A stretch of 64,000 nt of DNA from Vibrio sp. YMD68 (GTDB lineage: Bacteria > Pseudomonadota > Gammaproteobacteria > Enterobacterales > Vibrionaceae): positions 3,100,001 to 3,164,000 of the forward strand of contig NZ_CP124614.1 of the NCBI RefSeq assembly GCF_029958905.1. Direction: 5' to 3'. The notes under the pieces are model-generated. The model searched no databases. It saw nothing but the letters and a program-made list of their open reading frames with translations, and was not told where the DNA came from. Positions 1 to 16,252 of the stretch are shown here, piece by piece (the first letter of the stretch is position 1; every line of letters starts with the position of its first letter). Made by a program: the position numbers and the translations under genes.

Positions 1-2
1 AT

Positions 3-62
3 AACTTTCTGGCGTACATGGCGATGGACGCCTATGACCTTATTACGGTGGGGCCTCAATGA
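3..62 (+). CDS. C-terminal end of an unknown protein (partial)
   Basis: An open frame enters from the left edge and gives 19 residues (ending ...LITVGPQ) before TGA at 60-62. A strong intrinsic terminator follows 50 bases later, consistent with the end of a real transcription unit. The fragment is too short to assign a family. Its position ahead of small unknown genes suggests mobile-element cargo, but that is inference. Confidence 0.35.
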   Translation, partial: NFLAYMAMDAYDLITVGPQ

Positions 63-111
63 TAAAGCGTACTCACCCTAACAATAACCACTCTAATCAT
101 AGCAACACCCG

Positions 112-143
112 ATAAGGCCATCTCATTTTGAGATGGCCTTTTT
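112..143 (+). terminator. Rho-independent terminator
   Basis: The arms AAGGCCATCTC and GAGATGGCCTT enclose a short TTTT loop and are followed by a T-rich tract. It closes the upstream unit and lies just before the ribosome-binding site of the 174-419 gene. Confidence 0.8.
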
Positions 144-173
144 ACTTTCACTCAACAAAAAAAGGAGACCACC

Positions 174-419
174 ATGTCTTGGTATGTAACCGTTGGTAAA
201 GCTGTCGCAGCCACAGCCAGTGTCGCGGGCGTCATTACCGCCGCCCCTGTTTTTGGGGCCATTGGCACCATCAGTGCAGCCGGTTTTGCGGTGTCGACTG
301 CGATTGGCACATCTGCCGCACTGATAGATAAAGCGTTGGAAGAAGACAGACCAGAGTTACCTGACTGTCCAACTCATGACCATCCGCTCATCACTCACGA
401 GCGCTACAACGAGGAGTAA
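174..419 (+). CDS. Small unknown protein with a glycine/alanine-rich hydrophobic N-terminal half
   Basis: 81 aa. An AAAAGGAG ribosome-binding site lies 7 bases before ATG 174, so the start is well supported. Residues about 5-58 are rich in Ala, Gly, Val and Thr and hydrophobic, with two possible membrane-associated helices (about 8-30 and 32-52). A charged tail follows with several Asp, Glu and His. I do not recognise the family. It sits alone between two terminators (112-143 and 449-479), so it seems to be expressed as a single-gene unit or by read-through. The neighbourhood (winged-helix gene, unknown gene, type I R-M operon) suggests island DNA. A small membrane protein of phage or plasmid origin is possible; no function can be given. 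Confidence 0.6.
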   Translation: MSWYVTVGKAVAATASVAGVITAAPVFGAIGTISAAGFAVSTAIGTSAALIDKALEEDRPELPDCPTHDHPLITHERYNEE

Positions 420-448
420 GCGCCTCAATTCATTCTTAATGTTAGTTC

Positions 449-479
449 AAGCCACAGCCTAATCGGTTGTGGCTTTTTT
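449..479 (+). terminator. Rho-independent terminator
   Basis: The arms AAGCCACA and TGTGGCTT, with a TAATCG-type loop, are followed by six T. It ends the 174-419 gene. The next start codon is only about 20 bases downstream, so the winged-helix gene must use read-through or a promoter overlapping this hairpin. Confidence 0.8.
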
Positions 480-499
480 CATTCTATAGGAGCACAGCC

Positions 500-1111
500 A
501 TGCCACCATCCAATATCGAAGCGGTCTTTTTACTGCTTGCTCAGCTTCCTACTCGTTACCCCAAATCTTTAGAGAGTGTGTGTGATGTCTCAGAGGCGTT
601 AGGAATAGGAAAGTCCCCTGATACGATTCGACGATGGTTAAACATCCTCGCGGATTTAGGTTATGCAGAAAAAACGCGCCTGGAGGGCAAAGACAGTTTT
701 AAACGCACCACGCCCCTGCCTTGGGTGACTGCGCAATACGACAGCCTCATTTTAACGCTCACCACTCGCTACTTTGCTTGCCTGTTGCCTGAACGCACCA
801 AACAGCAATATCAATCCCTGTTTGAACAGAGTGAGATGGATACCCAAGAGAGTGGTACGTATCGACAGTGGCTAAGGTGCATTGAGGTGGACTTGCCTAC
901 AGAGCACATGAATTACTTCCCACACCTTGCGACCATCAAGCAAGCATTCATCCAGAAACAGACGCTGCGTTTCACCCTCGTAGGCCAGTGCCTTAACGCT
1001 ATCCCCACCAAGCTACGCCTAAGTACTCAAGGCTTGAGCTTGTTCTATCTCGATAACCAACAACTCAAACAGACACCGATGCTCGGTGTGCTGTCTGCTA
1101 CCGCTTTATAA
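500..1111 (+). CDS. Winged helix-turn-helix DNA-binding protein, unknown role
   Basis: 203 aa from ATG 500, preceded by TAGGAGCACAGCC. A longer frame opens at 467 but runs through the terminator and lacks a ribosome-binding site. Residues about 5-70 look like a winged helix: a helix with alternating Leu, then SPDTIRRWLNILADLGYAEK, which matches a recognition helix followed by the wing start. The rest is about 130 residues with no recognised domain. Such proteins in mobile elements are usually regulators or replication/partition accessories. It is followed at 20 bases by the 1131-2075 gene, so the two are probably co-transcribed. DNA binding is a fair inference; the target is unknown. Confidence 0.6.
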   Translation: MPPSNIEAVFLLLAQLPTRYPKSLESVCDVSEALGIGKSPDTIRRWLNILADLGYAEKTRLEGKDSFKRTTPLPWVTAQYDSLILTLTTRYFACLLPERTKQQYQSLFEQSEMDTQESGTYRQWLRCIEVDLPTEHMNYFPHLATIKQAFIQKQTLRFTLVGQCLNAIPTKLRLSTQGLSLFYLDNQQLKQTPMLGVLSATAL

Positions 1112-1130
1112 CGAAAAAGGAGCATCCACC

Positions 1131-2075
1131 ATGAACAGTCAAAACATTGAAACACCAGTAAGCCCACAACAGCACCAACCTCAAGATGAAAGAGCTGAGG
1201 TCTCAGCCCCTATTTTTCCCATCACCGTTTATGTTCATTGGTCAGAATCCAGAGCCTTTGATTCTGACACCGAGTATGATTTTGCAGATTTTGAAGCCAA
1301 AGCGTTAGAAGTGGCCAAGACCAATCCATTAGGCGGGTACGATAAAACCAAAGTGACGGTCACCTTTGATAATGAGCACCAACACGAATGCCGCTTAGAT
1401 TTAGGCTGTGGGGGTAATGACCAAGGATTTGCAGAGCACTGTTTAAGCACGCTCAATTACTACCATATACACAAAGAAGAAGCCGATAAGCGGTGGCTGC
1501 ATGACAAGCACCACCAGCAGCTCATCCGATTCATTAGGACGTACGCATTGGACTGTACAAACGTTGATTTGGGTCGAATGCAGATTAAGCAGATTGAAGC
1601 GCAAGCCAAAGCACAGGAGGCAGCAAAAGAAGCAGCCAAACAACAGGAGCGGGAAGAAGCATGGCGCGAGCACCAACAAGCGGAGGAGGCGTTCCAAGAG
1701 GCTCTGGAAGTACCGATATGGGCTAAAGGTGTGATTGTGGCGACACTCACCGACTATGATGCAGAAATCAGTGAGCCGTATGCGGGTGAGTTTCATACCA
1801 AAACGTTAAAGACCATCATACTGGCATGGTCGAAGCACAACAGACATCTGTTTTCGGAAATGCGTAAAGCGAGCCTCAATCATCCAGAGACGGCCTTTCT
1901 GAATGACAAAGAGAAAAGTGTGGAGCATCGAGAGCGGTTTTCAATGGGAGAAGGCTACTATCTGACCGACACTAAGTATTTACGCTATGGCTGGAAGATA
2001 AAGAAAATCAGCTTTTATCGAACAGAAAACAAGGCGCGATACGTGCCATTAGGTGAGCTGGCGATACCTGAATAA
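1131..2075 (+). CDS. Mobile-element protein with LPD25-like N-terminal region and a charged coiled-coil segment
   Basis: 314 aa from ATG 1131, behind AAAAAGGAGCATCCACC. A frame opening at 1086 overlaps the upstream gene and is less likely. Residues about 30-120 (starting around VYVHWSESRAFD) look like the large polyvalent protein-associated domain LPD25, known from big plasmid and phage proteins. Residues about 155-205 are Ala, Glu, Lys and Gln-rich and likely form a coiled coil. The C-terminal 100 residues are not recognised. LPD25 assignment is by eye and tentative. It is the last gene of its unit, with a terminator 2 bases after the stop. Likely plasmid or ICE cargo; function unknown. Confidence 0.55.
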   Translation: MNSQNIETPVSPQQHQPQDERAEVSAPIFPITVYVHWSESRAFDSDTEYDFADFEAKALEVAKTNPLGGYDKTKVTVTFDNEHQHECRLDLGCGGNDQGFAEHCLSTLNYYHIHKEEADKRWLHDKHHQQLIRFIRTYALDCTNVDLGRMQIKQIEAQAKAQEAAKEAAKQQEREEAWREHQQAEEAFQEALEVPIWAKGVIVATLTDYDAEISEPYAGEFHTKTLKTIILAWSKHNRHLFSEMRKASLNHPETAFLNDKEKSVEHRERFSMGEGYYLTDTKYLRYGWKIKKISFYRTENKARYVPLGELAIPE

Positions 2076-2076
2076 A

Positions 2077-2106
2077 AAAGAGAGGCGATCAATTCGCCTC
2101 TCTTTA
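2077..2106. terminator. Bidirectional-type intrinsic terminator
   Basis: The perfect arms AAAGAGAGGCGA and TCGCCTCTCTTT lie around a TCAAT loop, with A-rich sequence before and T-rich after. It directly follows the stop codon of the 1131-2075 gene. Confidence 0.85.
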
Positions 2107-2177
2107 GGTAGTATGATTTTTTTGCTCGCAGTTATCTACGACAGAGTCGCTTGATGCTTACCTCTAGCAGCAAGACG

Positions 2178-2208
2178 TTACCAATGATTTTTGGACAATC
2201 ATTGGTAA
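2178..2208. repeat. Inverted repeat in the gap before hsdR
   Basis: TTACCAATGAT and ATCATTGGTAA form 11-bp perfect arms around a 9-base spacer. No T-tract follows, so it is not a standard terminator. It may be a protein-binding site or a former element boundary. The rest of 2110-2300 holds no convincing gene. Confidence 0.5.
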
Positions 2209-2286
2209 GAGTACAAACTCAAATTTGTTCATTTTGGATGATTTTTTACCTCGAAGGCATGACTATTCGATTCTGTATAAAAACCA

Positions 2287-2330
2287 TTTTTGAATATATA
2301 TTCAAAAAGCAAGGGGGGGGGAGCCTTGCC
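2287..2330 (-). terminator. hsdR terminator with nine-C loop and adjacent 22-bp palindrome
   Basis: Reading the minus strand after the hsdR stop, GCAAGG and CCTTGC form a stem around a loop that holds a nine-base C run (G run on plus at 2313-2321), followed by TTTTT. Directly beyond lies a perfect 22-bp AT palindrome, 2287-2308. The terminator call is solid. The homopolymer is unusual for a Vibrio loop. Confidence 0.65.
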
Positions 2331-2337
2331 TTTCTCA

Positions 2338-5300
2338 TTATTTATACCATCCGTCTGCGAGTACCTCAGCTTGTTCAAGAACAAGCTTAATCGCCTCTTC
2401 TGCCGCATCGGGTGGATACTTCCATCGACGCAGCAGTCGACGCACAAGGTTTCGCATACGCGCTCGTACGCTTTCTCGCTTCTGCCAGTCAACTGTGGCT
2501 GACTTACGAAGTTGTTTGGTTAGTTCAATTGCCAAATTACGTAAAGCATCATCACCAAGCTCACGAACTGAAGACTCGTTTTCAACCAGAGCACGGTAGA
2601 AAGCGATTTCATCAACGGAAAGCTTTAACTTATCCAGAAGCTCTGAATCCTCTTGCATTTCCTTTGCCCACTGGATCAACTCTTCAATAACCTGAGCTGT
2701 TTCAATACTGCGGTTATGGTATTTTTGCAGCGTCGACATAATACGTTCAGAGTATTTCTTCTCCTGTACGACGTCGTTCTTCATGCGAGATTTAACCTCA
2801 TCACGAAGCAGCTTTTCAAGAAGTTCAACAGCTAAGTTCTTTTCCTTCATGCTCTTAACATCTTCTAAGAACTCTTCAGAAAGCAAACCAATGTTAGGTT
2901 TATCTAGACCAACCATTGAAAAAATATCATCAACGCCATCCGCGATGACCGCGTTATCGAGAATGTGTTTTAGAGCGGAGTTTCGCTCTTCATCTGAGCG
3001 TTTTTTGTCAACTGTCGTGTGCTTAAGAAATGCAGCTTTAATCGCCGAGTAAAATGCTATTTCATTTTTATAGCCGCGAGTCTCATCCATGGTATTACAC
3101 AACGAATAAGCTTTACCTAATGCAGCCATAACATCAAGAAAACGGCGCTTACCATCACGAACCTCTTTGCCATTGCTATCGGTATGTGACAACCCGGATA
3201 AGTGACCTGCGGCGCCTGGAAGTAATCGTAGTGCGTCTGTTTCAAAATCAGGGCGATAGTTAAAGACATAGCCATCTACCGGCGTAGCAAACATCCCTCG
3301 AATAATATCAACCTTCTCCATCAATACTGCAAATGCTTCTGCTGTATCGACTGTTGGCTGCCCCTTACCTTGACTGTTGGTATAGGTCTTTAGTGCATTT
3401 TTAAGTTCATTAGCGATACCTATATAATCGACAACCAAACCACCGGGCTTGTCTTTAAATACACGGTTAACACGAGCAATCGCCTGCATCAGGTTGTGCC
3501 CTTTCATTGGTTTATCGATGTACATGGTATGGCAACAAGGTGCATCGAATCCTGTTAGCCACATATCTCGAACGATAACGAGTTGAAGCTCATCGTCAGT
3601 ATCTTTGTAGCGCTTCTCGAATAGTTTTTTGGTTTTCTTATCGTGAATATGAGGCTGCATCTTCTCTTTGTCTGATGCAGAGCCAGTCATCACAATTTTA
3701 ATTGCACCTTTATCGGTATCTGGGTGATGCCAATCAGGCTTAATCGCCACAATAGCATTGTAGAGATCGACACAGATTTCTCGGCTCATCGCTACAATCA
3801 TGGCTTTACCGGGAAATGTCGATGTTCGAGTAGTGAAGTGCTCAACCAGATCTTTTGCAACTTGTTCAATGCGAGGCTCAGCGCCTACCAACTTTTCTAA
3901 TGTTGCCCATTCTGATTTTACTTTTTCACGATCTGCCGTTTCTTCATCTTCACCGATTTCATCTTCAACTTTATCGTTAAGCTGCTCAATTTCATCTTGG
4001 TTAATATCAAGCTTAGCGAGGCGAGATTCGTAGTAGATAGGCACCGTGGCACCATCATCAACGGCATCTTGAATATCGTAGATAGAGACGTACTCACCAA
4101 AAACACCACGGGTGTCTTTGTCATCCATTGCGATAGGCGTGCCTGTAAAGCCAATGAACGAAGCATTAGGCAATGCGTCACGCATATACTTGGAATATCC
4201 ATAGACGTACTTGTGACCCGTTACAGTGCCGTTTTTGTCCTTCACTTCAACCATCTTCGATTTATTGCCATACTGGCTACGGTGGGCTTCATCAGAAACC
4301 ACCACGATATTACTTCGCTCAGATAGTCGAGGATGCTCTGTCTCTTCATCTAATAAAGCGAACTTTTGAATCGTCGTGAATATGATGCCGCCAGATTGGC
4401 GATTGAAAAGCAGTTCACGTAATGCATCACGGTCATCCGCTTGTTGAGGTATTTGCTTTAACGTTTCTTGTGCCATCCCAAAGGTGTTGTAAAGCTGACC
4501 GTCGAGATCATTTCGGTCAGTGACCACCACGATTGTCGGATTATTCATTGAGGCTTGCTGTAACAACTTACTCGCGTAGCAAACCATAGAGATACTTTTA
4601 CCACTCCCTTGCGTATGCCAAACAACCCCTGCCTTACCACTGCCTTGCTTGATCTTTTCTAGCGCTGGAATTGTACTCTCTAGGAAGTTACCTGAGGTAT
4701 TAGCAGCACGAACCGTCGCCTCAACCGCCGCTCTCACCGCGTGGAACTGGTGATAGCCCGCAATCTTCTTGATAATTTTGTCGTTGTCGGTTTCAAACAA
4801 CACAAAATAACGAATGTAATCGAGCAATAAATCTTGCTTGAAAAAGCCACGAACCATGGTTTCTAATTGAAACTCTAACAGCGGTCTATCGTCTTCTGTG
4901 GCGACGGTTTTCCAAGGTAAGAATCGCTCCTTATTTGCCGTTAATGAACCAACGCGTGCCGTCCAACCATCGCTGACAATTAACGCTTCATTGAAAACAA
5001 ACAGATCTGAGATTTCGTCTTTGTAGGTTTGAAGCTGATTAAACGCATTCCAAATATCGGCATGTTCATCTGCTGGGTTTTTTAGCTCGATGACTGAGAT
5101 TGGTAGCCCGTTAATGAACACAACAACATCAGGTCGACGATTGCCTTTAGTACCTGTAATCGTAAACTGATTCACGATAAGGAATTCATTGTTATCAGGC
5201 GTTGTAAAATCCATTAGCTGAGCATGAGTATGCTTCGTTTTCGATTCACCATCTTCAACAGCCGTGTATTCAACAGGCACCCCTTCAATCACAAACTTGT

Positions 5301-5562
5301 GGAAGCCTCGGTTGTTTTTAATAAGAATGGGCGTGTCGGGGGAAGATACCGTATTAACCACATCATTCAGAGCTTCAATAGGCAGCTCGGGGTTAATAAT
5401 TTCTAACTGATTTAATAGGCGCTGCTTTAAAACGACTTGGTGGTAATCGTCACGCTCTGGAGAGTCACCATCAGGCGCGATGTCGTAGCCACTTTTATAG
5501 AGGTAACCTTGATCAGTAAACCAATTAATACACTGTTGCTCTAACTGGTCTTCAGTAATCAT
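2338..5562 (-). CDS. hsdR: Type I restriction enzyme, R subunit (HsdR)
   Basis: 1074 aa, normal for HsdR. The N-terminal nuclease domain shows D145 (RPDVVVF) and E159-L-K161 (VIELKN) of the PD-(D/E)XK site, with a QxxxY motif at about 177. The helicase motor follows: Walker A TQGSGKS at 317-323, DEAH at 424-427 (VVVSDEAHRSQYG), then GFTGTPI, and a C-terminal helical region that docks on the methylase core. It cuts DNA after ATP-driven translocation when the target is unmethylated. It is last in the order hsdM, hsdS, X, hsdR; its ATG overlaps the stop of X by 4 bases (ATGA), so it is translationally coupled to X. It ends at the terminator at 2287-2330. No break was seen, so restriction should be active. 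Confidence 0.95.
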   Translation of the reverse strand: MITEDQLEQQCINWFTDQGYLYKSGYDIAPDGDSPERDDYHQVVLKQRLLNQLEIINPELPIEALNDVVNTVSSPDTPILIKNNRGFHKFVIEGVPVEYTAVEDGESKTKHTHAQLMDFTTPDNNEFLIVNQFTITGTKGNRRPDVVVFINGLPISVIELKNPADEHADIWNAFNQLQTYKDEISDLFVFNEALIVSDGWTARVGSLTANKERFLPWKTVATEDDRPLLEFQLETMVRGFFKQDLLLDYIRYFVLFETDNDKIIKKIAGYHQFHAVRAAVEATVRAANTSGNFLESTIPALEKIKQGSGKAGVVWHTQGSGKSISMVCYASKLLQQASMNNPTIVVVTDRNDLDGQLYNTFGMAQETLKQIPQQADDRDALRELLFNRQSGGIIFTTIQKFALLDEETEHPRLSERSNIVVVSDEAHRSQYGNKSKMVEVKDKNGTVTGHKYVYGYSKYMRDALPNASFIGFTGTPIAMDDKDTRGVFGEYVSIYDIQDAVDDGATVPIYYESRLAKLDINQDEIEQLNDKVEDEIGEDEETADREKVKSEWATLEKLVGAEPRIEQVAKDLVEHFTTRTSTFPGKAMIVAMSREICVDLYNAIVAIKPDWHHPDTDKGAIKIVMTGSASDKEKMQPHIHDKKTKKLFEKRYKDTDDELQLVIVRDMWLTGFDAPCCHTMYIDKPMKGHNLMQAIARVNRVFKDKPGGLVVDYIGIANELKNALKTYTNSQGKGQPTVDTAEAFAVLMEKVDIIRGMFATPVDGYVFNYRPDFETDALRLLPGAAGHLSGLSHTDSNGKEVRDGKRRFLDVMAALGKAYSLCNTMDETRGYKNEIAFYSAIKAAFLKHTTVDKKRSDEERNSALKHILDNAVIADGVDDIFSMVGLDKPNIGLLSEEFLEDVKSMKEKNLAVELLEKLLRDEVKSRMKNDVVQEKKYSERIMSTLQKYHNRSIETAQVIEELIQWAKEMQEDSELLDKLKLSVDEIAFYRALVENESSVRELGDDALRNLAIELTKQLRKSATVDWQKRESVRARMRNLVRRLLRRWKYPPDAAEEAIKLVLEQAEVLADGWYK

Positions 5563-6749
5563 AAAGACTCCTCATAGATATGGTGCATCTCTTTGCAAAA
5601 AGCCACAAAAGAATTCGTGTTGATTAATGCTTTCTGAAGCTCTTTCATTTGTGTAAAAAACGTTTCGCTCTGCTGTTCAGGCGTTGATGCATGACCAATA
5701 AAATCAGAAAGGCTGCGATAAATGATGAGTGGGTGCCACGGGTTCTCGTTATTATTCTGAGTGACTCTGTCACTTAATTTCCAACCATTTGGCAAACAGA
5801 TTTCATTAACTAGCTTTTCATATAGCCCTCTAGAATTTAACTTAGAATGCAGTGGGTCATCTATATCAACTATGAGAGCTGCTAATGGTTCATTAGGCAT
5901 TATATCTTCAACACAATGATCTGCACTGTCTATTAAAAAACCACAGAATAGACCGGGAGCCCAGCCCCCTTCATCATACTCTTGAGTTACATTGTTAAAC
6001 TCTAATCCAATGCGTCCCCAAGTGTCATATTTTCCGCATCGTTCACTCACACCTACCTTGCGTTGGTAAACCTCTTTATTGTATGAAACATCGCCTTCTA
6101 ATTGTTGAATGGGCCACTTTTTATGTATGGCTCTTTTAGCTATATTATTGAGCTGTTCGTCAATTTTTTTTGCATCATTATAATATGCAATAGAAAGAGG
6201 GTTAATTGGAGTTATGTCAACTAAACGATTCACTTTTAATAAATGAATAAACTCTTCACGTATCCATAAATCTTTGTCATTACCACCCTCTACGCTTTCA
6301 ATTATTTCTGCAATTTGATACCAACATAAGGCTAAATCTGGGTTCTGCTTATGTTGGCCTACATGTCCTGTAATCAGCACGATTACAAATGCTTTCCCTA
6401 ATTTTTCTTCAGCGTATTTACGATAATTATCAAGCTGCTTATCAGAAAGTTTAGTCCAAACTTTATGTTCAAAAATAATGCTGAATGTTCTATCTGAAGA
6501 GTCCCAGCACATATCTGGAAACGTACCATTAAAATTAACTTGGGTATCAATATGCCTTGAATCGCCAACAGGCAGAATATTTAAACTTTTTTCTTCGCCT
6601 ACTTTTCTTAAGTACTTATCGATTGCTCTTCTAACTTCAGCATCGTTTCGCAATAACCAAGCAAATGCTTCTGTTATGAAATTTTCGGTAGGAGACGTTT
6701 TATCGCTCGATGCATATTTACTTACGTTGACCAGTAGGCTGTTATTCAT
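5559..6749 (-). CDS. PD-(D/E)XK nuclease-like protein inside the hsd operon
   Basis: 396 aa, not one of the three standard subunits. Residues 22-105 carry a restriction-like active-site pattern: E22 or E27 in a helix (TENFITEAFAWLL), D79 in GTFPDM, E94-H-K96 in IIFEHKV, and Q105 in SDKQLDNYRKY. This is the E-D-ExK-Q order of RecB/resolvase-type nucleases. The C-terminal 250 residues are not recognised. It sits between hsdS (27 bases upstream) and hsdR (4-base overlap), so it is built into the same transcript. Family knowledge: proteins of this type are common in defence islands. Possible roles are an extra nuclease, a second defence system riding on the hsd promoter, or a modulator of restriction. 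Which one applies cannot be told from sequence. Confidence 0.75.
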   Translation of the reverse strand: MNNSLLVNVSKYASSDKTSPTENFITEAFAWLLRNDAEVRRAIDKYLRKVGEEKSLNILPVGDSRHIDTQVNFNGTFPDMCWDSSDRTFSIIFEHKVWTKLSDKQLDNYRKYAEEKLGKAFVIVLITGHVGQHKQNPDLALCWYQIAEIIESVEGGNDKDLWIREEFIHLLKVNRLVDITPINPLSIAYYNDAKKIDEQLNNIAKRAIHKKWPIQQLEGDVSYNKEVYQRKVGVSERCGKYDTWGRIGLEFNNVTQEYDEGGWAPGLFCGFLIDSADHCVEDIMPNEPLAALIVDIDDPLHSKLNSRGLYEKLVNEICLPNGWKLSDRVTQNNNENPWHPLIIYRSLSDFIGHASTPEQQSETFFTQMKELQKALINTNSFVAFCKEMHHIYEESL

Positions 6750-6776
6750 AGCAGCAGTCCTTTGCAGTTGAGTTAA

Positions 6777-8075
6777 TTAGGTATCGTTTTGAGCTTTGTC
6801 TAAGTCGATTTCGCCGGAAAGCAATTTAGGAAGTAGCGTGTCGCGTAGCTTAGCCAGTTCTTCATTCTCAAGGCGATTTTGATGAGCTTTCTTCAACATT
6901 GAACCTGTAAGCTGCCAGAATTTTTGAGCAATATCCGTTGTAGGGATTACACATGGTGTATCGGCAACAACTACAGGCTTAATCGCAGGGTACGCACCAC
7001 CATCTGCTAGACGGGCATATTCATCAATAGTGTCATCATTGGTAGTAGCTAGGTAAACGAATGACGTCCAAAACTCTTCCTTTGGCGATAACACGGCGAA
7101 ACCTGTACTGCCTGTAAGTGGTTGCTCTGTCTCACCGATGAATGCAAAAGATCGATTTCCCGGACGCACCGTGCCAACAATGGTATCCCCAGAGTTCAAA
7201 ACTCTTCTAGCTCGTGAGGGCGCTTCATCGAAGTCAAACGTTGTGACAGTTTCAATCACACCATTTTTTGTGTTTGCTAGGTCAACGTAGTGAACTTGTT
7301 CGGGTTGGTTTTTCTTTGTCCATGATTTCGCATTGAGTTTGGCGATATCTGCAATTATTCCCTGACTCCAGCCGACAGGGATACCAGTTTCACTATCTAG
7401 CTTTTCTGGGAAGAGCGAGGCCGTGGCCGCATCCATACCCTCTGTTTGCTCTCCATTCATCTTGGCTTTTACTGGTTCGAAATCGACAAACCATGACTTG
7501 AAGATGGCTTGCGCCATATGTTCTAGGGTTTGGTTAATCTCATAGTTAAGGTGAATCTTGTCATCCAGCTCGCCTAAAACCGCAGCAATACGATTTTGCT
7601 CTTCTAGAGCAGGAATCGGAAACAACAAACGTTCAAGAGTTTGAAGGTTTATATTGTCTTGTACACTACCAGTAGCTTGTGCCTGAATGCGCTTTCTTAA
7701 TAATCGAAATACGTACTCTATGAAGTAAACATTACATTTTGATTCATCAGCAATAAAGCCAATAACACTGTCGGGGAAACATGCTGGGTAAGTTAGTATT
7801 CCGGTTTCTGCAATGTTAGCGGCTATAGTGATACACATAGTCCCCTTTGGCCACAATCGACTCTGAGCTAAACCCTCTTCGCTATACGTCTGAGAGTGCT
7901 GAGTAACGCGACCTTTAGAAGCTTTTACATCACCAGTTTGAACAAATGGGTAAGGCCCACCATACAAATGAGCCGCATCTCGTGGACGATGACGTGAACG
8001 CCCTCTATTAACCTCACCAAGATCGCTGAGTTTTACTTGAGACCACCCTTCAGGAATGTGAAGTTCAAAGCTCAT
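6777..8075 (-). CDS. hsdS: Type I restriction enzyme, specificity subunit (HsdS)
   Basis: 432 aa with two target recognition domains. TRD1 begins at IPEGWSQVKLSDLGEV (residues about 8-23) and ends at the first conserved coiled-coil region, ALEEQNRIAAVLGELDDKI (about 155-175). TRD2 begins at GIPVGWSQGIIADIAK (about 230) and is followed by the second helical region with ENEELAKLRDTLLPKLLSGEI near the C-terminus. It sets which bipartite DNA site HsdM methylates and HsdR restricts. Its ATG lies inside the end of hsdM (11-base overlap), and X follows 27 bases downstream. TRDs vary fast, so the recognised site cannot be predicted. The ATG of the frame is used; the preceding overlap supports coupling. 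Confidence 0.95.
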   Translation of the reverse strand: MSFELHIPEGWSQVKLSDLGEVNRGRSRHRPRDAAHLYGGPYPFVQTGDVKASKGRVTQHSQTYSEEGLAQSRLWPKGTMCITIAANIAETGILTYPACFPDSVIGFIADESKCNVYFIEYVFRLLRKRIQAQATGSVQDNINLQTLERLLFPIPALEEQNRIAAVLGELDDKIHLNYEINQTLEHMAQAIFKSWFVDFEPVKAKMNGEQTEGMDAATASLFPEKLDSETGIPVGWSQGIIADIAKLNAKSWTKKNQPEQVHYVDLANTKNGVIETVTTFDFDEAPSRARRVLNSGDTIVGTVRPGNRSFAFIGETEQPLTGSTGFAVLSPKEEFWTSFVYLATTNDDTIDEYARLADGGAYPAIKPVVVADTPCVIPTTDIAQKFWQLTGSMLKKAHQNRLENEELAKLRDTLLPKLLSGEIDLDKAQNDT

Positions 8076-9771
8076 AACCTAACCCCGCTAGGTTCTTCTT
8101 GATTTCAGCTTCTAGCGTTGCTGATTCTGCAAACTGCTCACTTAGCTTTGAAGTCAGCGCCACCATCTTTTCACCAAATGGAATACCATCGTCTTCTTCT
8201 TCAGCAGCACCAACATAACGACCCGGAGTCAATACGAAGTCATGTTTAATAATTTCTTCTAGCGTTGCTGATTTACAGAAACCTGCCTGATCTTCATAAG
8301 CTAAGCCATGAACTTCTTCACCTGTTTTCCAAGCATGAAATAAATCGGCTACTTTCTTAATGTCATCAAAGCTGAAATCACGTAATACACGATCTTTCAT
8401 GAAACCAAGGTTACGCGCATCGATAAACAACACTTCACCTTTACGTCCACGTAGCTTACGACCCGCTTTATCAACGCGAGGGCTCTTGTTCTTAGTTAAG
8501 AACCAGATACACGCTGGGATTTGAGTATTGGTGAACAATTGACCCGGTAGTGCCACCATACATTCAATTAAGTCATTCTCAATTAACGCCTGACGAATGG
8601 TGCCTTCGTTGTTGGTTGTTGAACTCATAGAACCGTTTGCCAATAGAAGCGCCTGAGAGCCTTCAGGTGCTAGATGGTGAAGCATGTGCTGCATCCACGC
8701 GAAGTTCGCATTACCTGATGGAGGTTGGCCGTATTTGAAGCGCGGATCGTTATCATCAACACCTGTGTTCCACTCTTTCATGTTGAATGGAGGGTTAGCC
8801 ATGATGAAGTCAGCACGAAGATCAGGGTGCTGTACGTTGGTGTAGGTACTTGCAGGCTCTTTACCGAAGTCATAATCAAGACCACGGATCGCCATGTTCA
8901 TCGCCGCTAGCTGCCACGTTGTATGGTTGTACTCTTGACCGTAAATAGAGATCTTCTGTTTCTGCGTTAGTGCGTCGACTTTCTTCTCATTCGCATGACG
9001 TTCAATGAACTTCTCTGATTGAACAAAGAAACCACCAGAACCCATTGCAGGGTCATAGACACGGCCTTCAAACGGTTCAATCATTTCAACGATCAGCGTT
9101 ACGATAGAGGCTGGCGTATAAAAAGCCCCGCCTCGCTTACCCTCAGCCAGTGCAAATTGACCAAGCATGTATTCGTATACATGACCTAGGATGTCTTTAC
9201 TGTTTAGATCAGCATGAACAAACGGGATTGTCGCAATCAGGTTGATAAGCTCATTGAGCTTAGCTTGGTCAATCTTTAATGAAGAATATGACTTATTGAG
9301 AGCACCTTTAAGTTTCTTAGGATTTTCACGTTCAATGCCTTCAAGTGCGTTATCAATTAAATGGCCAACAGAAGTGATCTTCTTAGCTTTACCATTGATA
9401 TCCAGCTCAGCACCACCAATAACCAATGGGCCGTTATCTTGCAGGAACTGCCAACGCGACTCAGTTGGTAGCCAGAACACGTTTTTCTCTGTGTAGAAGT
9501 CACGCTGTTCAAGCTCAATAGCAATCTCTGCCGCTAGCTCTTCTTCAGAGTAATCAGCAGGATCCAAATAGTATTCATGCTCAGGGTTGGCAATGTCAGC
9601 TTTGATCTCATCCTGACGCAGCTTAAACGCATCAGAGACGTATTTAACGAAGATTAAACCTAGCACTGCGTGTTTGTACTGCGCGGCGTCTAGCGTTGAG
9701 CGTAGCTTGTCTGCGGCGTTCCAAAGCTTGCCTTCAAGCTCTTTCAAATACTGTTGTTCTGTTTGATTCAT
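8065..9771 (-). CDS. hsdM: Type I DNA methyltransferase, M subunit (HsdM)
   Basis: 568 aa. N-terminal helical HsdM_N domain, then an N6-adenine methylase: GGAFYTP at about 214-220, the SAM-binding motif DPAMGSGG at 240-247, and catalytic NPPF at 326-329. It uses S-adenosylmethionine to methylate adenine in both strands of the HsdS-defined site, protecting host DNA. It is the first gene of the operon; the promoter should lie in 9772-9880. It overlaps hsdS by 11 bases. It belongs to a different subfamily from the hsdM remnant at 25563-26049, which carries EFYTP and a different N-terminus, so the two come from separate systems. Confidence 0.95.
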   Translation of the reverse strand: MNQTEQQYLKELEGKLWNAADKLRSTLDAAQYKHAVLGLIFVKYVSDAFKLRQDEIKADIANPEHEYYLDPADYSEEELAAEIAIELEQRDFYTEKNVFWLPTESRWQFLQDNGPLVIGGAELDINGKAKKITSVGHLIDNALEGIERENPKKLKGALNKSYSSLKIDQAKLNELINLIATIPFVHADLNSKDILGHVYEYMLGQFALAEGKRGGAFYTPASIVTLIVEMIEPFEGRVYDPAMGSGGFFVQSEKFIERHANEKKVDALTQKQKISIYGQEYNHTTWQLAAMNMAIRGLDYDFGKEPASTYTNVQHPDLRADFIMANPPFNMKEWNTGVDDNDPRFKYGQPPSGNANFAWMQHMLHHLAPEGSQALLLANGSMSSTTNNEGTIRQALIENDLIECMVALPGQLFTNTQIPACIWFLTKNKSPRVDKAGRKLRGRKGEVLFIDARNLGFMKDRVLRDFSFDDIKKVADLFHAWKTGEEVHGLAYEDQAGFCKSATLEEIIKHDFVLTPGRYVGAAEEEDDGIPFGEKMVALTSKLSEQFAESATLEAEIKKNLAGLGYEL

Positions 9772-9841
9772 TAGAAGTTTTCTTGTTAGAGAAATATTCC
9801 GTCAATCATACCACTGGATGCAGCATTGTCTTTGATTTATG

Positions 9842-9881: not shown

Positions 9882-10361
9882 ATGGAAGCTTGGAATAAAG
9901 GGAAGCACATCGGACAAAAGAAAGCGTTTCGGTTGGAAGACATATGGCGCATCCGTATTCGGCTTGAACTAAAAGAACGCTTGCTCGAATTGGCGTTGTT
10001 CAATTTAGCCCTCGACTGCAAGTTGAGGTCTTGTGATTTACGTAATTTGAAAGTTCAAGATGTCAGCCGCAGCGGCTGTGTAATGTCGCGAACTATCGTG
10101 AAACAGCAGAAGACTCAACAAGAAGTGCACTTCGAGATCACGCCCAAGACTCAACAAACTCTGTCACAGTGGATCATTCAAAACTCGTTGTTACCAACAG
10201 ACTATCTATTTCCAAGTCCACGCCGTGAAGGTCAACCCATTTCTTACCATTACTACACCACAATGGTTAACCGCTGGGTAACGGATATAGGACTCGATAA
10301 AACGCAATATGGTACACATTCACTACGCAGAACCAAGGCTTCTTTGAGAGTATATTTTTAG
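9882..10361 (+). pseudogene. Tyrosine recombinase (short XerC/D-like integrase family), truncated at the 3' end
   Basis: 159 aa remain. The protein starts normally (GTAAGGAGCACATT before ATG) and has the first catalytic arginine region KLRSCDLRNL (about 47-56) and the HSLRRTKAS box (about 146-154). The frame then ends in RVYF and a stop. The family normally continues for about 30-40 residues with LLGHTKLESTVRYLG, which carries the last histidine and the nucleophilic tyrosine, so this copy cannot recombine DNA. The break is at about 10345, directly against the end of the T6SS cluster, and marks the junction where that cluster, or a deletion, removed the end of the gene. It was probably once part of the same mobile unit as the hsd operon. 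Confidence 0.85.
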
Positions 10362-10382: not shown

Positions 10383-10667
10383 CTAACCTATATTCACTGA
10401 AGAGCCACCAACAATGATGCCACCACATGAGATAGCATCACCGACACGTGCAGCAGGCTTACCATCAATTATGACTGTTTTTGAACCTTCTTTGATGGCT
10501 CTTGGGTGTTTAGGGTGCTTGGGCTTATCGTGAGGCTCTAGTGGATCGCCTTGCCTTGCCACTGCTCGGCCATCAATCTTAACCGTTGATGAGCCTGATA
10601 TAATGGGCGTAGGTGGAAACCCATCATGCCCAGAGCCAATATCTCCAACAAGTGCGCCTTTTGCCAT
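10383..10667 (-). CDS. PAAR-domain protein, T6SS spike tip
   Basis: 94 aa, nearly all PAAR repeat: GDIGSGHDGFPPTPI at the start, repeated glycine-rich VxIDGxxxAxxGD elements (about 29-42 and 66-77) and SCGG near residue 81. PAAR proteins cap the VgrG trimer and sharpen the spike, often helping to load effectors. It is last of the cluster, starting 2 bases after the stop of the immunity gene, so it is in one transcript with vgrG. It has no C-terminal toxin extension. It ends at the junction with the truncated integrase. Confidence 0.9.
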   Translation of the reverse strand: MAKGALVGDIGSGHDGFPPTPIISGSSTVKIDGRAVARQGDPLEPHDKPKHPKHPRAIKEGSKTVIIDGKPAARVGDAISCGGIIVGGSSVNIG

Positions 10668-10669
10668 GA

Positions 10670-11368
10670 TTATTTTCCTGTTTGTGAATCTAATGGAGTG
10701 CTGCGGTAATTATCACCAGCTAAAATGTCGTAATGGATCACCGTATCCTCATTGAATTGAGAGAAATCGAAGTGAACGGTATAAGCATTAAATTCCGTAG
10801 CCGTTGTGCTTTTTTTATTATCAACGTAAAAGTTACACCCTAGACCACCAGACGTAGTTTTATCTTTCCATTGATGAATAAAAGTATTGCAATCTCTCGC
10901 TTCAATTTTTGAACCTAAGTCTATCGGTTTGTTGTTGTAGTTATTGCCCGCTTGATAAATACGTAATTGCGCAAATCCCACCGTATCAAAAGCGTTATAG
11001 GCTTCAACTTTGATATCTCGTAGTTCAACTACGCAGTTTTTACTGTTGGTATAAGTAGAGTAAGGTACTTCAAATTCATAAAGCTCATTACTTTCAATAT
11101 CATTGGGAGTAAAGAATGTGGTGATTTTCCCTCCTTGGTGAGCTTTTCGTCCAAACATATCGTAAGAGTAGGACTCACAACTCTCACCATGAACCCAATA
11201 GTTGGCCCATACTTTTACTGTTGCATCGATGGGTTTTGAGCCGGAAACTCGAATGTTTTTTTGTGGATGAGCATTCTGTGTTGAGTGCAGACTCCAAACG
11301 ATAACCGCAAGACATAGACTCAGTGCGATGCTCACCCCCCAACACTTTTTTTTAGCTGATAGGGTCAT
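10670..11368 (-). CDS. tsiV1: Putative T6SS immunity protein for the lipase effector (TsiV1-like)
   Basis: 232 aa. One N-terminal membrane segment or uncleaved signal (about 9-26), then a periplasmic domain with several cysteines that could pair (for example in GESCESY, NSKNC, EARDC and LGCNF). The start ATG overlaps the lipase stop by 4 bases, the usual effector-immunity coupling. The order hcp, vgrG, DUF4123, lipase, this gene matches the V. cholerae auxiliary cluster VC1415-VC1419, where the gene in this place (tsiV1) blocks the lipase in the periplasm. Function is inferred from position and topology; sequence similarity to TsiV1 was not measured. Confidence 0.7.
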   Translation of the reverse strand: MTLSAKKKCWGVSIALSLCLAVIVWSLHSTQNAHPQKNIRVSGSKPIDATVKVWANYWVHGESCESYSYDMFGRKAHQGGKITTFFTPNDIESNELYEFEVPYSTYTNSKNCVVELRDIKVEAYNAFDTVGFAQLRIYQAGNNYNNKPIDLGSKIEARDCNTFIHQWKDKTTSGGLGCNFYVDNKKSTTATEFNAYTVHFDFSQFNEDTVIHYDILAGDNYRSTPLDSQTGK

Positions 11369-13302
11369 TTTAACTGCTCCTTGATTTCTTCAGATAAAGA
11401 TTGATTTGACAACAACAGTAAACTAAGTGGCAAGCGCTCCGGGTTGTTCATGATACTGGTCAACTCTTGTTTTACTTGGTGCTGATTGTCTAACTGCGCC
11501 TCACTGATTGATAGCTCTTGTTTGAGCCGGGTGATGTAGGCTTGGTTGACAGGGGAGTAGGGGTTGCCTAACGCTTCGGCTAAACTATTCTTTGTCTTCA
11601 AATAACCACGTTGTTGGTCGTTAATGGTGTCAGCTAAATAAGCAATAATGCCTTGGTAATGATTATATAGACTCTCTTTACTTAGATTTTGTAATTGAGC
11701 CAATAGGTTAGGGATATAAAACTCCATACCGTGATCGGCTATTGAGGCATCAGTCAAGCCGTCCACCAGTGCGACGGAATCATTTTTAGCCATTTTTGCT
11801 ATATCAAGCATCGTGATTTGAGTTTGTCTTGGTGACAGTAGAACCTGATTGGGTTTGGCGTAAGTGATCAGTTGGGATAATTGTCCATGATGTAAATAAT
11901 TGTCACCATCGTTATCGGAGATCATCTTCTTAGCCAGTGTCACACCGCTACTAAAAATATCGGACAGTTCAAATTTTTCAGTTGCGCTTGTATTTACCCA
12001 AATCATAGGGACTTGGGGAACCAAGTCATGGTTATTCACATGTCGATAGTGCAAAATATCTTGGTAACGTTGCACAAAGCTGCGCGTTCCTGTACGTGGC
12101 ATACCGTAAGTATATAAACGCAACTTTTCAAAATTAACTTTATCGTTAATGAGGCTACTTAAAATTAGTGCACCAGCTCCACCTAAGCTGTGTCCGCATA
12201 TGTGTATTCTTTTATTTTCAAAATCGTTTACATTTAGCTGTATTTTTTCCCATAAAGCCATCGCATATTGATAGAACCCTCGATGGACATAAGCTCCACC
12301 AAACTCAGGCGGTGCAATTTGAGCTGCATCTAGATTTGTTTTCACGAAGTCTTGCATGCCTGGAGATTGGATTATGTTTCCTAGTTTATCTACTACTAGA
12401 GCTTGTATTCCAGAAGCGGCTTTTACAATTTTTAGTAACTGAGTGTCTTTTGTGCTGTTTCTGTCTTCAAAGTAAGGCTCTGAGCCTCGCACGCCAATTA
12501 TAGCAATATCATCATTGAACAGAATATACCCTTCGGCACCCACAGTGTCATCAGCATAATAACTGTACTTTAGCGCTTGACTGTATGGGATTTCTTTCAC
12601 GACCCATTTTGCTGCTAAATTGCTGCAATAGGCAGGCGTTTTTCGCTCTCTTAATTGTGTTGTCACAGTATCAATAGCGCCGTTAGTATTTGTTGATTCT
12701 CCATCATCAACACTGAGTTTATCTGTCGCATAAGCCAGCTTTGACAACAAAGCAAAAGTATAACTATTGATGAGGTTAAACTCATCGGTATCCACAATCA
12801 TCGGCATGTAGCTGCGTAGTGCCTTTATCTCTAGTACAACGGTCGCGTTGTGCCACCCTCGAACCCCATTCAGCTCTGCACGCACATTACTCATGATTGC
12901 GCTGTGATGCTCCGTCAGAAAGGTGTCTTCGGGGGGCGTCTCCCATAAATCCCCGACACTAACCAAATGGTATTTTTTGTCATTTTTATGAGCCGCGCCG
13001 AGTTCCTTTTCTGCTCTTGCTTTTACAGGGGATGGCTCTCCCTCCTTGCGACTTTTGTATTGTTCAACCGTGGTTAGGAGGTTTTCGGTTTCGACACTGA
13101 TTACCCATTCTCCAGCGGCAATATGACCAAACACACAATATCCCTGATAAGCGGTCATCGTGTGGGTTTGCAGCGTGCTTGGGTTAGTAATAGTCACGAT
13201 TAAGTTGTTAATTGGCTCATCGTTTTCACTGCGAAACTCCACTTCTAACCAGTTAACCTCTGGATTACACAAGACGCAGTGGTTGTACATTTCAATCGCC
13301 AT
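11365..13302 (-). CDS. tseL: T6SS phospholipase effector, TseL/Tle2-like
   Basis: 645 aa, close to V. cholerae TseL (about 640). A class 3 lipase fold is shown by the nucleophile elbow G-H-S372-L-G-G (HICGHSLGGAG), a likely acid D426 in HVNNHDLVPQV and a likely catalytic histidine at 471 or 472 in NYLHHGQ. The first 150 residues are a non-catalytic beta-rich region that probably binds the delivery adaptor. It would hydrolyse membrane phospholipids in attacked cells. Its start overlaps the adaptor stop by one base (TAATG), and the immunity gene overlaps its end, so all are made together. No T6SS sheath, baseplate or ATPase genes are in the window; delivery needs a core cluster elsewhere. Confidence 0.85.
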   Translation of the reverse strand: MAIEMYNHCVLCNPEVNWLEVEFRSENDEPINNLIVTITNPSTLQTHTMTAYQGYCVFGHIAAGEWVISVETENLLTTVEQYKSRKEGEPSPVKARAEKELGAAHKNDKKYHLVSVGDLWETPPEDTFLTEHHSAIMSNVRAELNGVRGWHNATVVLEIKALRSYMPMIVDTDEFNLINSYTFALLSKLAYATDKLSVDDGESTNTNGAIDTVTTQLRERKTPAYCSNLAAKWVVKEIPYSQALKYSYYADDTVGAEGYILFNDDIAIIGVRGSEPYFEDRNSTKDTQLLKIVKAASGIQALVVDKLGNIIQSPGMQDFVKTNLDAAQIAPPEFGGAYVHRGFYQYAMALWEKIQLNVNDFENKRIHICGHSLGGAGALILSSLINDKVNFEKLRLYTYGMPRTGTRSFVQRYQDILHYRHVNNHDLVPQVPMIWVNTSATEKFELSDIFSSGVTLAKKMISDNDGDNYLHHGQLSQLITYAKPNQVLLSPRQTQITMLDIAKMAKNDSVALVDGLTDASIADHGMEFYIPNLLAQLQNLSKESLYNHYQGIIAYLADTINDQQRGYLKTKNSLAEALGNPYSPVNQAYITRLKQELSISEAQLDNQHQVKQELTSIMNNPERLPLSLLLLSNQSLSEEIKEQLK

Positions 13303-14183
13303 TAGGCTTTTCCTTGTAATTGACTGAATAGATTTGTTAGACCAAATAACAACTCGTCATCTTTAAGTTTGGCAATGTCGTCTTGAATCGAAGGTTGTAT
13401 TAGTGTGGCTTGTCCATAGAGAGTCAGCACGCTGGCCGTCAACGTTTTTTCTTGCACAGTAAGCGCTTGAGCCTGAGTGTTTGGTATGGATTCTAATGCA
13501 GTGAAATGGGTTTGGAAGAGCGCATTAAAATCAGGTAAACCTTGCTCTATTCTTGATTGCATTAAGTGAGATTGATGTTGCCACAGCCAGGTTTCAACGT
13601 TACGGCTCAATAGCGGAAGGTTAGGTGCGCCATCCAAATGATGCGTTTTGATTACCCACCAAGGTTCATTTTGTATTTGGCTCTTCGATTGATTTTGATT
13701 ACTTGGGCGCTTAGATTGCCAATGTAGCCATTGCTCATCGTGTCGAATTAATACGCGATGGTTTTTAAGAAGAAGAGTGACCTCTTCGGGATCTAAACGC
13801 GGCAACATAGTTGCAAGGTCATCCGGTTTATAAAAAGGGAAGAAGACTTTTTCACCTTGGATGATGGCCTGAAATAAACCAGCGAAGTATTCACGCAGCG
13901 CTTTATAGCTGGAATCGGTAGCAATGAGAATGCCACTATTAGCGTGTTCACTCTGTTGCCACCAATCTAAAAACCGCGCATTAACAGTAACAGGTAATAA
14001 CCACGGCCCATCCTCTGGATTGGTCAAAGCCTCTGGACTCATCAATGGTCCGCCATCTATCCCGTCACATTGGTAAAAAACGACATGAGGTTGATGTGCT
14101 GACTTAGGGTCAACGATAATGTACAGGTTTTTATCTGACTCTTTTTGTTCATTGAGCCATTGAGTAACGTTCACTGACATCAT
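13302..14183 (-). CDS. tap-1: DUF4123 effector-loading adaptor (Tap-1/TEC type)
   Basis: 293 aa from ATG 14183, which shares one base with the vgrG stop (TAATG) and has AAAGG 7 bases upstream; a longer frame opens at 14204 with TTG and is not needed. The N-terminal half looks like DUF4123 (NLYIIVDPKSA, then GPWLLPV at about 65 and the helix REYFAGLFQAII). DUF4123 proteins hold an effector and place it on its VgrG. Gene order, vgrG then adaptor then lipase, supports its role as the loader for the TseL-like protein. The C-terminal half has no recognised motif. Confidence 0.85.
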   Translation of the reverse strand: MMSVNVTQWLNEQKESDKNLYIIVDPKSAHQPHVVFYQCDGIDGGPLMSPEALTNPEDGPWLLPVTVNARFLDWWQQSEHANSGILIATDSSYKALREYFAGLFQAIIQGEKVFFPFYKPDDLATMLPRLDPEEVTLLLKNHRVLIRHDEQWLHWQSKRPSNQNQSKSQIQNEPWWVIKTHHLDGAPNLPLLSRNVETWLWQHQSHLMQSRIEQGLPDFNALFQTHFTALESIPNTQAQALTVQEKTLTASVLTLYGQATLIQPSIQDDIAKLKDDELLFGLTNLFSQLQGKA

Positions 14184-16252
14184 TATGTTGCCTTTTGTTC
14201 GCAAGGTTTGAGGAGTGCGTTTGGTGGTGTTGTGGGCGTGCGTGCAGGTAACGTCACTGGCTCTGATTGTGCTATTGCTTTTTCTGGTGATGGGGCCTTG
14301 CTGGTTTCTGTGGTCTTGATGCTTTTAGGCCGCTCTGCCATTTTCCCTGCAAACCCACTGCCGCTGCCCGCGCTGCCTCCCGAGTTCAGGTTAATCCCCG
14401 CCCCGACAAGGCTCACGCCAGATGCGTCCACTTTCACAAAACTGCCGCCCGCTTTTAACGTCAGCTCTGCGCCCGCTTCTATCACCACTTTTGTCCCTGC
14501 TTTAAGGTGAATCTCATTGGCCGATTCAATCACGTAAATATCGCCCACTTTCTGATGCAGGCTTCCTTTTATAATCTCCGTGGCGTCTTTTTGGGTAAGA
14601 GAGCGGCGCTCACCTTCAACCGTCAGATGATGGTTATTCTTGATTTGGGAGAAATGGTCATTGTCGACCGTCGTGTGTTGGTCATGCTTAATGTGCTGCG
14701 TCATGTCGTTTAACACTTGAGCATCAAAGTCTTTTTGAGCATGGAGATAGATTTGCTCTTTCTCCGCTTGGTCTTCAAAGCTTAATTCGTTAAACCCTTC
14801 CCCTTGATGAGTTTGACTGCGAAGCACGGTTTTGGTTTTATTCTCTGGCAGAGCATAGGGGGGCGTGTTCGTCGCGTGGTAAGTGCGACCAGTGATGATG
14901 GGTTGGTCTGGGTCGCCATTTAAAAACGAGACAATGACTTCATGTCCTATACGAGGGAGAGCCATCGCGCCGTATTGCCCGCCCGCCCAACTTTGTGAGA
15001 CTCTCACCCAGCAAGAGCGCTGCTCATCGTCAATCTCATCTCTATCCCAATGAAAACGAATTTTAACTCGTCCGTATTCGTCGCAGAAAATCTCTTCACC
15101 TTCAGGGCCAACGACCGTGGCTATCATCGGGCCATCGACGGTCGGTCTTACTTGGGGAGCAGCTTGCCAGTTGAGGTGGGCAGGGATAGCCTCCCATTGA
15201 TTATTGTAGGTGGTGGCCCCATGCCCAGCCTCTTCTTCCAGCGCTTGAGGTTGCTCGCCTTGGCGATTGATTGTTACCAGCACCCAATCTCGATTGAAGA
15301 CGTTATCGAGATGCCCATCCATATTAAATCGATACCCAGCGCGTAATAAAGGCTCGTTACTTTTACCCGTCGCGACTTGCGCTTTGCGTCTTAAAGACTC
15401 AAGACGAGCTTGAGTGAATTTAGCGCCATTATCGTCTTTTTTATAACGGCCTGGCGCATCAAAATGCACGTAGTCCGGTTGTTGGTATTCGATGTCCGCC
15501 GCTTGAGCGGTTTGGCTAAACGAGTAGGCGGGCTTTTTGAAGCTGGTGTCTTTTAGCTCAACCTGACTGATGTGAGACTCAGACTGATAGTGAAAACTTT
15601 GGATGTAAGGTGTATCACTCACGCTACCGCCGAGAGCGTTGTAAGGTATTGGCGGCTCTATTTGGGTCAGCAGTGCGCTGGAGTCACTGAAGATTAAGGT
15701 GTGCATGCCCGCTTCGTGAGCAAAGCTGTAGACGATGCCTTCTTCTGCGGCGAGGCGGTGCAGAAAATCCAAATCACTTTCTCGGTACTGAACACAGAAC
15801 TCACGCTCAAGCGAGGCTTGCGTGAGTGAAAACGTGTAGTCGTCAATCCCCATTTCCTGTAACAAAGTAGCGATGATATCAGGAGCCGTTTGGTGTTGAA
15901 AAATACGACTATTATGGCGCAGGGATAAACGCTCAAGCGCCGGCACCAAGGTCAGCGCATAGAAGGTGTGGTGATGCCCCGTCTCTTTTTGAGTAAAAGC
16001 ACGCGCAATACCGTGAACGCGTTGAACCAATTGCTGGTTGCGGTACATCTTTAATTCAACACGTCGGTCAACGACATCGTCCGCAGTGAGGGTGGAGAGG
16101 CGACTGGCGAGGTTGATGTCATAACAAAAGCCATAGCAAGGCCGGTCGTTAAACTGGCTGGCCGATAAAGACTCTTGCCCGCTAAATTGAGTGACCTTAA
16201 AGGCGTCATCGCTCAGTCCCTCTACGGTTATCGTGTACGCCAATGTGGCCAT
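14183..16252 (-). CDS. vgrG: VgrG, T6SS spike protein
   Basis: 689 aa. The N-terminal gp27-like part (to about 370) is followed by the gp5-like OB fold with the family signature around RVKIRFHWDRD and CWVRVSQSWAGGQYG, then by the repetitive beta-helix needle (about 520-620, with KAGTKVVIEAGAELTLKAGG). The last 60 residues are Pro, Ser, Thr-rich with no enzyme domain, so this is a carrier and not an evolved VgrG. It sits 122 bases downstream of hcp, separated by a strong hairpin, and is coupled by a one-base overlap to the DUF4123 adaptor. The end of VgrG probably binds the adaptor-lipase complex. Confidence 0.95.
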   Translation of the reverse strand: MATLAYTITVEGLSDDAFKVTQFSGQESLSASQFNDRPCYGFCYDINLASRLSTLTADDVVDRRVELKMYRNQQLVQRVHGIARAFTQKETGHHHTFYALTLVPALERLSLRHNSRIFQHQTAPDIIATLLQEMGIDDYTFSLTQASLEREFCVQYRESDLDFLHRLAAEEGIVYSFAHEAGMHTLIFSDSSALLTQIEPPIPYNALGGSVSDTPYIQSFHYQSESHISQVELKDTSFKKPAYSFSQTAQAADIEYQQPDYVHFDAPGRYKKDDNGAKFTQARLESLRRKAQVATGKSNEPLLRAGYRFNMDGHLDNVFNRDWVLVTINRQGEQPQALEEEAGHGATTYNNQWEAIPAHLNWQAAPQVRPTVDGPMIATVVGPEGEEIFCDEYGRVKIRFHWDRDEIDDEQRSCWVRVSQSWAGGQYGAMALPRIGHEVIVSFLNGDPDQPIITGRTYHATNTPPYALPENKTKTVLRSQTHQGEGFNELSFEDQAEKEQIYLHAQKDFDAQVLNDMTQHIKHDQHTTVDNDHFSQIKNNHHLTVEGERRSLTQKDATEIIKGSLHQKVGDIYVIESANEIHLKAGTKVVIEAGAELTLKAGGSFVKVDASGVSLVGAGINLNSGGSAGSGSGFAGKMAERPKSIKTTETSKAPSPEKAIAQSEPVTLPARTPTTPPNALLKPCEQKAT

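Follow-up and report, generated by a model that had tools for sequence, protein, structure and literature searches.

A PD-(D/E)XK nuclease-like gene carried in an exchangeable hsdS-hsdR slot of a Vibrio type I restriction-modification operon

We analyzed a stretch of 64,000 nucleotides from the chromosome of Vibrio sp. YMD68 (contig NZ_CP124614.1, positions 3,100,001 to 3,164,000; hereafter the window), in which a gene for a 396-aa protein, gene X, lies between hsdS and hsdR of a type I restriction-modification operon. We propose, with a probability of roughly 0.6, that X is an independent nuclease, in all likelihood with a putative anti-phage effector function, that is carried as cargo in an exchangeable hsdS-hsdR slot. 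This proposal is based on a PD-(D/E)XK-type core that retains the catalytic positions, on a slot whose content is swapped between operons, and on relatives without hsd neighbors. Its parts differ in strength. X is very probably an active PD-(D/E)XK nuclease; there is good reason to regard it as exchangeable cargo and not as an obligatory subunit of the restriction-modification enzyme; and a putative anti-phage or anti-plasmid role is probable. The fold and its invariant residues, a single match among the PADLOC models (to PDC-S26), a slot with many tenants that include defense families, a second operon with another tenant, lower GC content, stand-alone loci, empty slots, broken or cut copies (L011, L016, L020) and published embedded defense genes together support this interpretation.

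Predicted nuclease core of X

The open reading frame (ORF) of X runs from ATG to TGA without an internal stop, and it is more than a chance ORF, because it has 81 relatives and a low ratio of nonsynonymous to synonymous substitution rates (dN/dS). These relatives were found at E<=1e-3 among 1545 candidates of a first search; a profile search scored 4000 candidates from a database of 5.8 billion and returned 188. For the window X against its relatives, dN/dS is 0.065 and 0.077 in the two computable pairs, with a saturated dS of >3, and thus indicates purifying selection only roughly; for most pairs dS was saturated or not computable. In an alignment of 67 relatives selected from the 81, Glu-22, Asp-79, Glu-94, Lys-96, Gln-105 and Tyr-109 are each invariant (67/67), and Glu-27 is kept in 65. 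X accordingly contains the D...(D/E)-x-K catalytic residues of the PD-(D/E)XK superfamily (D79, E94, K96) and, behind E-x-K, the Q-x-x-x-Y feature of the RecB/Cas4-like branch (Q105, Y109), a motif named in PMC4625639.

The predicted model of X is confident (pLDDT, the predicted local distance difference test score, of 90.6). It contains the alpha-beta-beta-beta-alpha-beta core expected of the superfamily in residues 1-172, with a second domain behind the core. A preliminary description of this locus, made from the sequence alone, had listed the 396-aa ORF with E22/E27, D79, E94-x-K96 and Q105 in this order and called the protein nuclease-like. All of these residues are found at their positions, and the structure prediction it proposed as a check returned the restriction-endonuclease-type core, not a fold lacking it. 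Foldseek gave no match at E<=0.001 in the Protein Data Bank (PDB) for either model and three at E<=0.001 among viral predicted structures, the best of which is named a PD-(D/E)XK nuclease superfamily protein. A profile search of X against PDB chains returned none at E<=1 and hence gave no sequence link at this limit to solved structures, RecB/Cas4-like members included. The best listed structure matches of the C-terminal domain, among them 2a8e from B. subtilis, are all weak, and their titles are not those of DNA readers.

Curated families cover X in part. Pfam PDDEXK_4 (PF14281) matches the core stretch 79-132, but at 17.3 bits, below the curated cut-off of 22.3; precomputed annotation assigns this domain to 5 of the 81 relatives. 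NCBIfam gave nothing relevant for X and PHROGs no match at all, and no DUF262/DUF1524 domain (GmrSD/TgvAB) was matched in Pfam at E<=1. Its sole PADLOC match is PDC-S26 (E 2.3e-4), confined to core residues 79-152, and the same holds, likewise for the core only, in eight of nine X relatives tested. PDC-S26 is an embedded, PDDEXK_4-like phage-defense candidate whose models (about 350-450 positions) are near X in length, but outside the core X does not match them, and there is no full-length match. By sequence the X family is probably a distant relative of PDC-S26. The PDC families are described as putative and not experimentally validated in the part of PMC10855318 available to us. A full PDC-S26/PDDEXK_4 protein overlaps the hsdM start in one operon with the same kind of HsdR (L102, 4603-5835), where the slot itself holds a SIR2 protein. 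PD-(D/E)XK domains are reported for 13 of 31 additional validated defense systems in an excerpt of PMC13092281. The X family is small, no curated model searched covers it at threshold, and we noticed no paper on it in the literature searched.

The hsdS-hsdR interval as a cargo slot

The genes are arranged in the operon-like order hsdM-hsdS-X-hsdR (Table 1). The TGA of X and the ATG of hsdR (start 5562) share the four nucleotides ATGA, the 4-base overlap given in the preliminary description; the overlap between hsdM and hsdS is 11 nt long, and a 27-nt gap separates the hsdS end at 6777 from X. Inside X, a GAGGAG directly 5' of ATGA reads as a likely ribosome-binding site for hsdR. The spacing suggests that the four genes may form one transcript; because promoter-like sites (8 versus 16.0 expected) and terminator-like sites (8 versus 6.5) between 2200 and 10000 are at chance level, we infer co-transcription from the spacing only. 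X is A+T-richer than its neighbors, with a GC content of 36.7% versus 44.6, 44.5 and 43.7% in hsdM, hsdS and hsdR, and of 30.2% versus 42.2, 37.0 and 41.6% at third codon positions.

Table 1. Features of the window around gene X
Feature	Position	Strand	Evidence
Gene X, 396-aa PD-(D/E)XK nuclease-like protein, slot gene	5559..6749	-	ORF, relatives, predicted model, structure matches
X residues 1-172, PD-(D/E)XK-type core	6234..6749	-	structure matches span model residues 1-172; conserved residues
X codons D79 to K96 (D...E-x-K)	6462..6515	-	invariant in 67/67 aligned relatives
C-terminal alpha/beta domain (X residues 173-396) with weak similarity to 2a8e	5562..6233	-	
ATGA, X stop overlapping hsdR start	5559..5562	-	sequence; 4-nt overlaps with other tenants too
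Cargo slot, delimited against the second operon copy of the same genome	5563..6804	-	blastn: matching DNA stops at 6805, restarts at 5569
hsdS	6777..8075	-	Methylase_S 6e-25
hsdM	8065..9771	-	N6_Mtase 1.2e-106, HsdM_N 1.5e-20
hsdR	2338..5562	-	HSDR_N 6.9e-47, SWI2_SNF2 3.9e-76, T1RH-like_C 4.3e-115
Tyrosine-recombinase gene (159 aa), adjacent to hsdM and divergent from it	9882..10361	+	Phage_integrase 4.8e-11

A second, inverted type I operon is present on the same chromosome, its hsdR about 29 kb from that of the window. From within hsdR onward the two copies are 96.4% identical over 7 kb, and the match breaks off close to the end of hsdS and sets in again where hsdR begins. Between these borders the second copy has a different gene, encoding 312 aa (L092, 9520-10458), which by eye starts like a winged helix and contains an HPD...E-V-K stretch.

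We compared these two operons to others of their kind. Among 394 genomes of the order, 38 have HsdR relatives at E<=1e-150, at 39 places in total. We took 20 of these places whole, including the second copy in the window's genome; they were chosen by hand, most of them near the head of the ranking. Same-strand ORFs of at least 100 aa fill the hsdS-hsdR interval in 17 of the 20 operons; L096 and L110 lack such ORFs, and in L107 the sole ORF lies on the opposite strand. None of these 20 operons carries X; with the window, G458 and G618 counted as well, X is present in 3 of 23. The tenants include DUF4268/PDC-S11 proteins (L093, L105 and, by way of a database protein, L094), an ankyrin/PDC-M72A protein (L095), Fic (L099, L101), SIR2 (L100, L102, L103) and Shedu (L111); those of L092, L108 and L109 gave no Pfam or PADLOC match, and L097, L098, L104 and L106 were outside the family scan. 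The slot of L005 holds four genes, X among them. Unrelated tenants overlap hsdR by the same 4 nt (L093, L094, L099, L102), and this overlap is therefore not special to X. The hsdS-hsdR interval is thus a swap slot with sharp borders, and X is a foreign gene in it, exchanged between operons. The DUF4268/PDC-S11 tenants resemble X in their slot, their length (382-391 aa), a subthreshold PDDEXK_4 match and, in L093 and L094, the overlap with hsdR. A profile-profile comparison gave no appreciable similarity between the two (probability 0.4, E 0.15), even if the aligned piece does pair the D and E-x-K regions.

Genes embedded in this interval have been described before, and X is a further one. In the accessible portions of the respective papers, TgvAB (PMC11411939, PMC12409362), DarTG2 (PMC12255303, where the site is discussed as a possible hotspot) and RloF (PMC4619093) are placed between hsdS and hsdR, and embedded TgvAB is reported to work without HsdR activity (PMC11411939). 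They share the place of X but belong to other families, TgvAB being a GmrSD-like pair, DarTG2 a toxin-antitoxin system and RloF a DUF262 protein. Genes embedded in type I operons are known to yield new defense systems.

Several features surround the slot. The short tyrosine-recombinase gene divergent from hsdM (window 9882-10361) recurs in L003, L011, L048, L093 and L095, as if travelling with the block; these ORFs were recognized by their starting letters, that of L048 by annotation. The two operons lie in closely similar, inverted, defense-bearing blocks, at about 3066-3078 kb (C2; L092, L113) and at window 1-9813 with L114, and an ORF that by eye resembles a phage-type integrase is located beside one copy (L113, 4882-6108). 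The 312-aa gene belongs to a family of 309-317 aa, with 39-40% identity, that also occurs in L005 (9056-9985), beside X, and in L007 (11011-11964), where its neighbor is a stand-alone X relative; those members scanned have no Pfam or PADLOC match, and their E-V-K stretch was seen by eye. Beside the block, at window 10383-14204, lie ORFs for what we take to be a PAAR protein, a lipase-like protein and a type VI secretion cluster adaptor.

Relatives of X with and without hsd genes

We saw the context of X at 23 distinct loci (the window, L002-L020, L048, L049 and L052), with flanks of up to 10 kb on each side that are shorter at L006, L009, L010, L012, L013, L014, L017 and L052; at L049 the match to X starts only at residue 105. 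An intact hsdM-hsdS-X-hsdR operon is present at six loci (window, L002, L003, L004, L005, L048), so that the position between hsdS and hsdR given in the preliminary description is confirmed here and recurs in five other operons. At three more, X follows hsdM-hsdS with no hsdR seen: it is truncated to 143 aa in L011, broken by an interrupted frame in L020 and cut by the contig end in L019. L016 has an X relative broken into two pieces. No HsdM, HsdS or HsdR match was found in the flanks examined at 14 of the 23 loci. The survey of homologs that the preliminary description called for thus gave a divided answer: some do sit in the hsdS-hsdR interval. Of the condition that its author had set against the idea, homologs mostly outside hsd operons and with other known roles, one half holds: most are outside, but we found them to have no other known role. 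In a quick tree, a single switch of state accounts for the 6 embedded and 12 stand-alone rows, with a support of 93 that was not starred. L019 and L020 are from Verrucomicrobia, and since the start of their X resembles, by eye, the stand-alone type, they suggest a second, independent association of X with hsd genes.

X is rare in genome samples. Strong, nearly full-length matches number one in the class sample, four in the order sample and one in the genus, the window's own. The family profile at E<=0.001 finds 10 of 369 class, 12 of 394 order and 9 of 227 genus genomes, where matches other than the strong ones are short, cover mostly the core and are left out of the count of X (L042, in the genus, is a brief fragment containing a stop). 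Stricter limits gave 2 of 129 genomes in the genus of G618 (1e-20) and 1 of 299 in the phylum (1e-15). The phage records searched had no match, viral contigs had one weak relative that was not counted (L041), and plasmids had two records.

Two kinds of neighbor recur around these relatives. An FtsZ-annotated ORF near X in L049 (12236-13324) resembles the ORF directly before X in L017 (591-1307; 25% identity over 140 aa, E 2.9e-10). An unnamed neighbor of 122-130 aa is found upstream of stand-alone X relatives in L008 (9431-9823) and L052 (8451-8819), with 41% identity over 116 aa; the L008 protein has no Pfam match.

Cargo, partner or subunit

We investigated whether X is inherited together with HsdR. 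Among the six embedded operons, the HsdR closest to that of the window (L048, 93%) is paired with an X of only 53% identity, and the closest X (L002, 67%) with an HsdR of 78%. In tree tests on groups picked after the identities were seen, the X data reject a window+L048 group (approximately unbiased test, p-AU 6.7e-6), and the HsdR data reject window+L002+L003 (9.6e-5). Two results limit the case for X as independent cargo. HsdM, a true subunit, likewise rejects window+L048 (1.2e-5), so modules recombine in general; as evidence against a subunit the conflict of X with HsdR is weakened, and in these alignments it shows exchange, not independence. In addition, 12 genomes with stand-alone X loci were searched for Methylase_S, and the five without a match (seven had some) are all metagenome-assembled genomes, which makes this absence weak evidence. 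The L049 plasmid had no Methylase_S match.

The preliminary description had seen in X a fourth component whose dose is tied to HsdR, which would bind HsdR or HsdMS and add to or regulate cutting. The tight packing with its 4-nt overlap, the six intact operons and the grouping of the embedded clade on the tree would fit such a component, but unrelated tenants share both the place and the overlap, the slot of related operons holds other genes or is empty (L096, L110), 14 of 23 loci have no hsd gene in the flanks examined, and the HsdR closest to that of the window comes with a distant X. A subunit would be expected in every operon of its kind; X was found in 0 of 20, two of them with empty slots. 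We therefore regard this claim as unsupported and quite improbable. It is also improbable, if slightly less so, that the embedded clade works as a partner of the type I enzyme, a RecB/Cas4-like end-degrader that takes over DNA broken by HsdR. Phages that block the host exonuclease would then still be destroyed, stand-alone relatives would act behind other cutters, and, if true, the hsdS-hsdR slot would be a site for finishing effectors, beyond a parking place.

Other alternatives concern the target of X. A modification-dependent, type IV-like nuclease that cuts modified phage DNA escaping the type I enzyme, as TgvAB does in V. cholerae, would share position and complementary logic with that system, as far as the portion of PMC11411939 at hand describes it, and the separate second domain of X could read DNA. 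In the Pfam, PADLOC, NCBIfam and PHROGs searches, however, X matched neither GmrSD (DUF262/DUF1524) nor a known base-reading domain, and the best structure matches of its C-terminal domain, all weak, are by title not DNA readers; we consider this role rather unlikely. The truncated or broken relatives (L011, L016, L020) and the rarity of the family could instead indicate a passenger without a defense role, either a repair nuclease or a decaying insert of a mobile block. In the window, however, the gene is undamaged, its catalytic residues are invariant and it shows signs of purifying selection; in addition, several other slot tenants match defense families, which makes a passenger highly improbable.

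If X is self-contained cargo, it would act next to the type I enzyme as a second layer, not as one of its subunits. The slot would give X the expression of the operon, while hsdR may have its ribosome-binding site at the end of X. Its invariant Q-x-x-x-Y, which follows E-x-K, would place X in the RecB/Cas4-like branch, acting on DNA ends, although we regard an end-degrading mode as tentative and rather doubtful. The C-terminal domain may restrain the nuclease and respond to a partner or to a signal of infection; both this mode of control and the target of X are our inference. The embedded clade could since have adapted to its operon. The two similar, inverted operons of this chromosome, with different specificity and slot genes, allow the question of partner or cargo to be asked in a single background.
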